Assembly (NCBI GenBank): GCA_025201345.1
Contig: JAIXMG010000001.1
Coordinates: 1,984,001-2,048,000, forward strand
DNA length: 64,000 bases
DNA from: Thamnidium elegans
Lineage: Eukaryota; Mucoromycota; Mucoromycetes; Mucorales; Mucoraceae
Direction: 5' to 3'
Under the pieces are notes generated by a model that was not told where the DNA came from, ran no database searches, and worked only from the letters and a program-made list of their open reading frames with translations. The first letter of the stretch is position 1. Each line of letters starts with the position of its first letter. Made by a program: the position numbers and the translations under genes. This document shows positions 61,116 through 63,869 of this stretch, one piece after another.

Positions 61116-63869
61116 TCAATTTTGACGTGTAAAAATTGTTGGTCGGTCCATACCAGCCCAGATCTGGCGTGCGATGAACATCATATTTTTTGCAGCGAGG
61201 ATATCTCTATTCCAAAATATATTACAATCGTTGCAGATCAATAAATCAAAGAATGATTTGTCGTCAACTTTATGAGTTCTAAGCTTCATTTCTTTGCAAT
61301 TTGGACAGACCTATTTTATAGAAGGATAATTAATTGACTTAATAAGCGCTTAATTGTATTGTAATGACTTACAGAAATGGTCCGGAACTCATTTATATCA
61401 AGCAATAACACCTCCCCGAGGTTTTGCCTTCTTTTTAAATTCTTATAGATGACATCAGAAACGCCAACTCGTCGTCCTTTGTACTTCATATGGCTACTCC
61501 CTTTTAAACCATCACCGAAAATCACCAAAGGCATCTTTGTTCTGTCCCCTTCAACGAAATGACTTTTGTGGTTAGTCCGTCTAAAATATAAATGGATGTT
61601 AGTAAGATGATCATATACTTGGAAAATATACTATTACTTTATTTCTATTGGTAGATTGCGAGAATCGAGAGTTCGTCGGTTGACCATTTTTTTTCGTTTC
61701 CGTCTATTTGATTTTGTTTTCTTTCTTCGATTGGGGTTATATTTTTTCCCACCATTAATCAGAATATTGCAAGCTTCTTCGAGGGCACATTGCCTTCCAT
61801 AATAATTGTTCCATTTAATTGAAGCTGTTCTGAAGTCATAAAAATTAAAAAAACGCCTCAAATGAGTCAGTACATATGTTAGGTGGTTGATGTAAGAATC
61901 AACAGAAGAAGTTTTAGTCGTCGGGATTTGAGTCTCTAGATCCTTTATGCCTTGTTCGATTTTGAAGGTATCTTGTTTTCTTGCTCGATTTACAGATCCA
62001 GAAGAGCAATAGTATTCATTTACTGTCAGAGACCTGACCTGTTCATTTCCATAATATGCCACATATGCATTCTTACGGCCAGGGTCTAGAAAACAAGGAC
62101 GGAAAAAGTTTTCAATTTCGTCTGCGTTGAAATCTGCGATTTCAAGATTGACTTTATCTTCTTCAAGGGTTTCTGGGACACTCCTTGCAAAAGAAATTCT
62201 ACAGGTATATCCATCAGTGTATATACTGTTCAAGAACATCCGTCTTTTCTGTCTTGGTAATTCTTGTAATTTTGTCAAGCTATTGTAATAAATATTAATA
62301 ATGATCTTAATTGGGAGAGGGGGGATTAAAAAAAACTTACTTTCTGATTTTCAGCTTGGTAAAATCGAAAGAATTGAAAAAGCAACGTGTAGCGAATGCG
62401 AAATTTGTTTCGTTTTCTTCTCTTTGAAGCCGTGTATCAGGGAAAAGAGTTGACAAATTTTGACCATCAATCTTTATGAACCGCCATTTAAGACTAGGAT
62501 TTGGAAAAAGAGAAAACAAGCGAGGCCTCTGGGGTTGTCGCATTTGTGTCTGAGGACGGACTAACTCAACCGTTTGAGCCGGCGGTTGCTCTGTTGTTTG
62601 TTCTAGTAGCTCTTCTGACTGTTCTGGCTGCGCATTTTCCTGAAGTTGTATATTGACCTGCTCATAGAATTCGATAATATAAGTCATTATCGATAGAACA
62701 ATGAACGGGTTTTTGGTCACTTCTTCTCTTGAAAGTGGGAGCCAGGTGCTCTGTTTCTAACTGGCTGAATGATATCGTTTAAAAATGCCTGTAGATTTGG
62801 TGCACTATTAAGACCATCTTGTGTAATAAAATCTTCTGGCATATCTGACCTTGTGTCGTTCTTTAAGACTTCATCTAAGACATAATCATATACAATCTTT
62901 TTTACAAGTGGCATTTTAATATTCTTATAAATAAATTTCATGAGTATAATAGTTATGTAAACTAGTATTTTTGTTAATACTTACAGTATACTCCTGTTTT
63001 AGTCTGTATATAAAATAGTTTCCAATATACGTTTCATAATTTTCCACGTAGAAGTTGTTATAGGCAGTAGCTACAGTATCACAAGCAGACGAAACAATTT
63101 GGCCATACCCTACTAGACCTTCTCTTTCAACTAAAAGATTGACATTTTCTAACGCTTGTAAATGGTTATAGGCTTCTTGAATGCCAGGAAGTCTTGGATA
63201 AAAGTTTTGTAGTTCTTCAATGGTGATTTTCCCATAAATTAATCTACAAACTCTGTACCAGAAGTTTTTTTCAAATATATCATTTGAGAGATACTCGACA
63301 TTGTTGTTTGCATTATTTAAAATATAATAATTAACTAAAAGCTGTGCTTTATAAACAACCTCTCGTAAAAATGAAGACTGTGTAATTATTCTCTCTTGAT
63401 ATTCTAATAGTTTGTTCGGATTCCCTTCATCTTGCCTGATGAATGATTTAAGCGTTATAGAAACGGTATACAATTGATAAGAAGTAGGGAAAGCCATTCC
63501 TAATCTTTCTTTAATAGTATATTCACGGTTGGGACATAAACGAGAAGCAGAAGTAGTATGACCAGGTTGGCCACAGGACTTGCAAACAGGTCCAGAAGAT
63601 GAAGAATCCTGTTCTATTCTTCTTCTTTTTCTTGCATCCGCCTTGGCTTTTTTCTCCTCTGGTGTGTCTTTTTTTCTTTTATCTGAGTCAATATAGCAGT
63701 TAGATAAAGTTATCAATATGATCAATAAAATTCACAGAAACTGTTATAGTTCAATGTTACCTCTTCTTCTATTGCTAGATTGCCTTTCCTCTTCAACACG
63801 TACCTGAAACTTCTGTTGCTTTTTATTTCGAATTAGTTCTTCTGTTTCAGGATAGATAATAGGACGCAT
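61116..63869 (-). CDS. Fanzor (eukaryotic TnpB-like, RuvC) nuclease, one apparent frame break
   Basis: Exons: 63761-63869, 62985-63682, 62923 to ~62745, then a second frame to 62341, 61638-62279, 61373-61580, 61116-61310 (about 800 aa). Near residue 65 is a CCHC knuckle, CKSCGQPGHTTSASRLCP. A helical recognition region follows. YTDGYTCRISFAR precedes RuvC-I FLDPGRKNAYVA (Asp at 62084-62086). Then a basic KKTKSNRRKRKK stretch, FGDGLKGSSHMKYKGRR, RuvC-II LLLDINEFRTIS (Glu at 61388-61390), zinc ribbon CPNC...CNDC and RuvC-III FWNRDILAAKNM (Asp at 61203-61205). All catalytic residues are present. Fanzors are OMEGA-type RNA-guided DNA nucleases carried by transposons. Between exons 3 and 4 the frame shifts by one base with no plausible intron. 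Confidence 0.85.

Follow-up and report, generated by a model that had tools for sequence, protein, structure and literature searches.

Fanzors are compact eukaryotic RNA-guided nucleases, few of which have solved structures. In Thamnidium elegans (order Mucorales), positions 61116-63869 on the minus strand of a 64,000-nucleotide stretch (the window; GCA_025201345.1, contig JAIXMG010000001.1, positions 1,984,001 to 2,048,000) had been read in an initial annotation as a multi-exon Fanzor gene with a complete RuvC triad and an added CCHC zinc knuckle. Does this locus encode a working nuclease, what is its extra zinc motif, and how did a spliced Fanzor gene come to lie there? The evidence below makes it highly probable that a T. 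elegans transposon, inserted recently and inactive today, occupies the locus and carries a Fanzor1 gene beside the arm of a DDE (Tc1/mariner-like) transposase, and that its intact kin would move and be restored in the way proposed further on.

Gene structure and Fanzor1 identity

The interval runs exactly from ATG to stop and contains the six exons that had been anticipated as a minimum (109, 698, 583, 642, 208 and 195 nt). The introns (78, 61, 61, 57 and 62 nt) are all of the GT-AG type, and the phase is kept at all five joins. In protein alignments, homologous proteins from Mucorales read through the joins uninterrupted. The annotated T. elegans protein P0002, the product of another copy, also has its CCHC knuckle at residue 70, in agreement with the start codon at 63869 and the first splice of the window gene. 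The parts of the gene, with the evidence for each in brackets, are as follows.

63761..63869, minus strand: exon 1, ATG at 63869, basic N-terminus (splice phases and agreement with P0002)
62985..63682, minus strand: exon 2, CCHC knuckle (C70, C73, H78, C86) and start of the recognition (REC) region (splice phases, motif positions, alignments)
63534..63584, minus strand: knuckle CX2CX4HX7C, residues 70-86, within exon 2 (motif coordinates; kept in 18 of 22 rows)
62341..62923, minus strand: exon 3, frameshift private to the window copy (splice phases, comparison of copies)
61638..62279, minus strand: exon 4, end of the pre-RuvC region, then RuvC-I with LDPG (D529) (motif positions, SpuFz1 match, alignment)
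61373..61580, minus strand: exon 5, RuvC-II with DINEF (E742) (motif positions, alignment, profile match)
61116..61310, minus strand: exon 6, C4 zinc ribbon/TNB domain, RuvC-III with WNRD (D783), stop (PF07282)

The RuvC triad is complete in the window protein, as D529 (DPG), E742 (INEF) and D783 (NRD), and is accompanied by two CxxC pairs, C749/C752 and C773/C776. Alignments place the triad in register with D383, E541 and D606 (computed numbering) of SpuFz1, the Fanzor1 of Spizellomyces punctatus (PDB 8GKH), which are given as Mg ligands in PMC10432273. Counting only rows with a residue among the 79 aligned, position 529 is D in 63 of 68, position 742 is E in 19 of 19 and position 783 is D in 14 of 14, the small numbers at the last two positions being due to the many database models that are without the C-terminus.

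SpuFz1 was the sole significant sequence match of the window protein in the PDB, and a profile built from 45 relatives recovered it at 3.4e-27. The Pfam domain PF07282 was matched at 1.2e-5 with 25.8 bits, slightly below its cut-off of 26.3, and exceeded the cut-off in all three relatives scanned. The Fanzor1 motif of Bao and Jurka 2013 (PMC3627910), D-X(125,275)-[TS]-[TS]-X-X-[C4 zinc finger]-X(5,50)-RD, is present in the family, T745 being followed by S in 16 of the 18 rows with a residue. In the window protein the spacings are 216 from D to T745 and 5 from C4 to RD, and an I at 746 departs from the motif. Both fingerprints that Yoon et al. give for Fanzors, DPG and a Glu six residues ahead of the zinc finger, are found (D529-P-G and E742-X6-C749) and identify the Fanzor type, unlike TnpB and Cas12f; the zinc-finger loop (20 residues) and the D-to-E distance exceed the search pattern of those authors.

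A structure was predicted for P0005, a homologue 42% identical to the window protein over 95% coverage, as a stand-in for the latter. Confidence in RuvC was low in the first model (mean pLDDT 67.8), and a second, made with 45 alignment rows, reached a pLDDT of 78.6 and a pTM of 0.77. Ranks 1-7 of the Foldseek search were occupied by the Fanzor1 structures SpuFz1, GtFz1 and PpFz1 (Parasitella parasitica, PDB 9CF0/9CF1, PMC11423790); the same seven came top with the first model, and the VIA structure comparison concurred. TnpB, Cas12f and Fanzor have a common core of RuvC and TNB, and TnpB and Cas12f did appear in the fold lists, with far weaker matches (expectation value, E, of 1.3e-5 for Cas12f, 1.4e-3 for TnpB and 2.6e-3 for the mimivirus Fanzor2, against 1e-14 to 1e-19 for Fanzor1). 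Fanzor2 and TnpB are thereby ruled out as the closest fold of the P0005 model, and the sequence match to SpuFz1 together with the Foldseek ranking rules out a non-Fanzor zinc-ribbon transposase. No phage relatives were found in the 'phages' collection with P0005, the only protein tried. Thus the family is Fanzor1 by sequence, by fingerprint motifs and by the predicted fold of a homologue, which equals that of SpuFz1; the original identification, including its triad and zinc pairs, stood up to both the profile search and the structure model.

The N-terminal CCHC motif

The motif C70-C73-H78-C86 has the spacing CX2CX4HX7C. All four ligands are kept in 18 of the 22 rows that reach these columns, a set that includes the window protein and T. 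elegans P0002 and P0003, and many rows share the context CxSCxxxGHxSARSxxCxN. Identity to the window protein is 30-60% among the 11 aligned database proteins. Among the exceptions, P0008 and P0074 are without the last Cys and appear to be truncated gene models, in P0015 the His is replaced by Asn, and P0062 (Phycomyces) retains a single ligand of the four. The 75-residue region around the knuckle was found at 28 genomic places, comprising 15 close copies and 13 diverged ones.

The motif had been described as a knuckle of retroviral type with HX6C spacing. Retroviral-type zinc knuckles have the form CX2CX4HX4C. The presence of an added N-terminal CCHC was borne out, but the spacing is HX7C and the Pfam scores lie under the cut-offs (zf-CCHC_6, 14.4 bits against 22 for the whole protein; zf-CCHC, 13.7 against 20.8 for the exon 2 frame), so that the retroviral label was dropped. 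Among solved knuckles, retroviral nucleocapsids come nearest in sequence, with E values of 0.67 and weaker, which are not significant.

By its position relative to the fold, the motif is an addition to the Fanzor1 core. In P0005 the knuckle occupies residues 36-52, and the VIA alignment places the beginning of the shared fold at model residue 69-71. The same alignment starts at residue 18 of SpuFz1, 2 of GtFz1 and 103 of PpFz1; in the first two, which are among the Fanzors studied best, there is therefore no room for a knuckle. SpuFz1 is encoded by a single open reading frame with 17 residues ahead of the shared fold (entry numbering), whereas the T. elegans gene is spliced, specifies about 100 residues ahead of the fold and is accompanied by a transposase arm. 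PpFz1 has room for a knuckle, and none was detected there, PpFz1 being absent from the PDB sequence matches with E values of 10 or less of the family and of a knuckle piece; this is weak evidence, the presence of the PpFz1 chain in the sequence library being unchecked. PpFz1 also differs from the T. elegans family by a cyclophilin-binding FRI insertion in RuvC (PMC11423790).

Conservation in 18 of 22 rows makes the knuckle more than a chance cluster. Lying in an N-terminal extension, it most likely adds single-stranded nucleic-acid binding. That the four residues are a functionless vestige or a coincidence is improbable: the substitution in P0015, the losses in P0062, P0008 and P0074 and the low Pfam scores would fit such a view, but the 18 rows with all four ligands, many of them in the shared context, and the 28 genomic places, 13 of them diverged, speak against it. 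Neither a knuckle nor CCHC is mentioned in the main text of PMC3627910 or in the text available of PMC10432273, PMC10711439 and PMC11423790. A search of the Fanzor literature gave no report of a knuckle among the matches listed; supplements were outside its scope and an earlier mention is possible. The motif thus appears to be an undescribed zinc motif conserved in a clade of Fanzor1 proteins, and would constitute a testable accessory domain that might alter RNA loading or specificity.

Ahead of the knuckle, the first 69 residues of the window protein contain 22 K/R against 13 D/E. A basic N-terminus of this kind may have a role in nuclear localisation. A Fanzor-like protein of Parasitella parasitica, P0020, has two CCHC motifs in succession close to the N-terminus.

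The transposon and its copies

Read in the orientation of the gene, the element has its outer left end (TAACGTGCATCTACTTTATAATAAACT) first, followed by a transposase arm and by an internal terminus (E1) that repeats this end in inverted form. The Fanzor ATG comes 40 bases after E1, and a fixed right end, ...GATGCACTGTA, lies 343 bases past the Fanzor stop. TA is found at both ends of the element. Outside the gene, the following parts were recognised.

63937..64000, minus strand: start of the transposase-derived left arm, which continues past the window to C1:2049063 (L082) (copy comparison; DDE_3 trace)
63910..63936, minus strand: E1, internal transposon terminus, matching the outer left end at 26 of 27 bases in the window copy (end comparison)
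60773..61115, minus strand: 3' region between the stop and the fixed right end ...GATGCACTGTA, where an omega RNA is tentatively placed (right end at 17 places)
60758..60772, minus strand: right flank, candidate guide if an omega RNA extends some 15 nt beyond the end (suggested by the cases of SpuFz1 and the SfAV Fanzor)

Seventeen genomic places carry the right end, 16 of them over most of the 343 bases. The seventeenth, C56:986k (C56:986191-986260; L087, about 2600-2761), combines the outer left end and E1 with some 70 bases of the right end and is without a Fanzor gene, the junction falling at a shared TA. The right-end region is thus kept even in a gene-less copy, which resembles the ghost elements of SpuFz1 (PMC10432273). 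The transposase arm is long in four copies (C2, C3, C19 and C21) and shortened in seven (the window copy, C1b, C1c, C10, C11, C26 and C33); C31 and C32 have no similarity to it, C56 and C63 are rearranged, and C62 was compared on the right side. Among five compared copies that show both, the outer left end and E1 agree at all 27 bases in three and at 26 in two. The right end has diverged, and the two outer ends of the element are non-identical. A motif, NPIERFWG, was read by eye in the transposase piece. Shared ends, differing flanks and the transposase arm together indicate that Fanzor1 is carried here in a eukaryotic DNA transposon.

Exon identity to the window copy is 97.8-98.9% for the other twelve near-full-length copies; the spread was therefore recent, and the introns were carried along with the DNA. 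The introns had been taken as a sign of long residence in the nuclear genome. They fail as such evidence because near-identical copies with the same introns were recently spread by a transposon, and because multi-exon Fanzor1 genes have been known since 2013, with five and ten exons in Chlamydomonas (PMC3627910). The same paper describes Fanzor1 in Tc/mariner elements with TA target sites, places it in Rhizopus, Phycomyces and Mucor, and reports a Mucor family with nearly identical 3' parts and variable 5' parts. Introns, association with mariner and the presence of Fanzor1 in Mucorales were therefore already known, and the T. elegans element resembles those elements in its putatively mariner-like transposase, the TA at its ends and its multi-exon gene. 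T. elegans is absent from the species table of PMC3627910, and the comparison was made without its supplementary sequences. SpuFz1, too, is carried by a transposon that has inverted repeats, and there, as in the T. elegans element, the flank ahead of the left end is conserved (PMC10432273).

Two pairs of copies have flanks in common. C19 and C21 (L028, L027) share 587 bases of right flank (99.8%) and differ on the left, and C10 and C11 (L030, L025) share the left flank and not the right. Ectopic exchange between copies is possible in both cases.

Decay, the TTA motif and the proposed role of the nuclease

The window copy is a pseudogene, a disabled Fanzor1, and the view that it is a working nuclease is not supported. 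It has a one-base frameshift in exon 3, and its reading frame stops at codon 338. The frameshift is private: it is unshared by all 11 other copies covering the place (C56 is deleted there; C1b and C1c are without that region), which rules out an extra intron at this point. That the copy might function as it stands, the frame being restored through an intron that escaped recognition or through a shift during translation, is very improbable. The flanking exons are still coding and the divergence from the other near-full-length copies amounts to 1.1-2.2%, but the 11 unshifted copies and the I at 746, mentioned above, oppose the idea.

Could the disruptions be mainly indel errors of the assembly, so that several copies, including that of the window, are in truth intact? 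Many of the disruptions alter the length by one to three bases; these are known here from assembled sequence alone and may be assembly errors. As a general explanation this is nonetheless unlikely, since one length change is common to 7 of the 13 near-full-length copies and reads as inherited, while other disruptions are large (an insertion of 152 bases and deletions of 313 and 162) and in C2 codon 18 is a stop with no length change ahead of it.

We prefer the view of a recently inserted and now inactive transposon. In intact family members, the transposase would mobilise the element between the TA-containing ends, presumably duplicating the TA. The Fanzor1 protein, with an omega RNA from the right end bound to it, would cleave DNA that matches the flank. 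Its most likely target is the donor site left empty beside a TTA motif; repair of the cut site would then bring the element back.

The motif in question comes from the junctions. T precedes the left TA, giving TTA, at all ten independent left ends (the window copy, C33, C26, C1c, C10 with C11 as one, C2, C3, C21, C19 and C56:986k), against a background of 0.321 for T before TA in the window. The mirror base follows the right TA at 2 of 16 independent right ends (C19 and C21 as one), and the asymmetry between the sides is significant (Fisher p = 1.2e-5). The armless copies C31 and C32, excluded from the ten, also have TTA before the junction. The one-sided TTA is a candidate footprint of a target-adjacent motif (TAM). 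A precedent is offered by the SpuFz1 elements, with a conserved CA ahead of the left repeat and the TAM CATA (PMC10432273). For PpFz1 the TAM is given as ATN in PMC11423790, where the motifs of SpuFz1 and GtFz1 are assigned differently in two places.

There is nearly an even chance that the bias instead reflects target choice by the transposase, or a T borne by the element. A search for an empty site, made for two copies, found none; the T may therefore belong to the element or to a transposase preference, and the non-identical outer ends would allow such a preference to be asymmetric. On the other hand, a transposase that targets TA symmetrically predicts no difference between the sides, and the arrangement in SpuFz1 elements is similar. 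A bolder proposal for the Mucorales subclade is that the knuckle works in the ribonucleoprotein, where its ligand would be the omega RNA or else the displaced strand, and that the elements leave a TAM footprint, insertions next to a left TTA being the only ones to persist as only there could the Fanzor cleave the vacated site and so recover the element. As a whole we regard this combination as rather doubtful. If the one-sided TTA at natural insertions were such a footprint, TAMs and Fanzor-assisted retention could be read from genomes.

Several observations weigh against an element whose kin were moved and restored in this manner. Under the present gene model, every one of the 13 near-full-length copies is interrupted somewhere between start and stop; with no intact copy found in this genome, the function has been lost here or depends on unseen copies. 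The end piece of the transposase matches DDE_3 weakly (E = 0.0057, below the cut-off), and a Pfam scan of its two other pieces gave nothing beyond chance-level rows. The failure to find an empty site leaves target-site duplication and TAM unproved. Folding of the 3' region gave a z-score of 0.06 (sub-regions, -0.96 to 0.58), and thus no structural support for an omega RNA region. Finally, the predicted fold is that of P0005 and not of the window protein.

The window contains a trace of a second, different Fanzor family.

50796..50960, plus strand: relic of this family, TNB region with two stops

Better copies of that family lie elsewhere in the genome (L001-L008 and L010-L013 among the copies compared). 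Upstream of the relic, at 49160-49879 on the plus strand, a 239-residue open frame contains a SET domain (PF00856, 1.4e-6).
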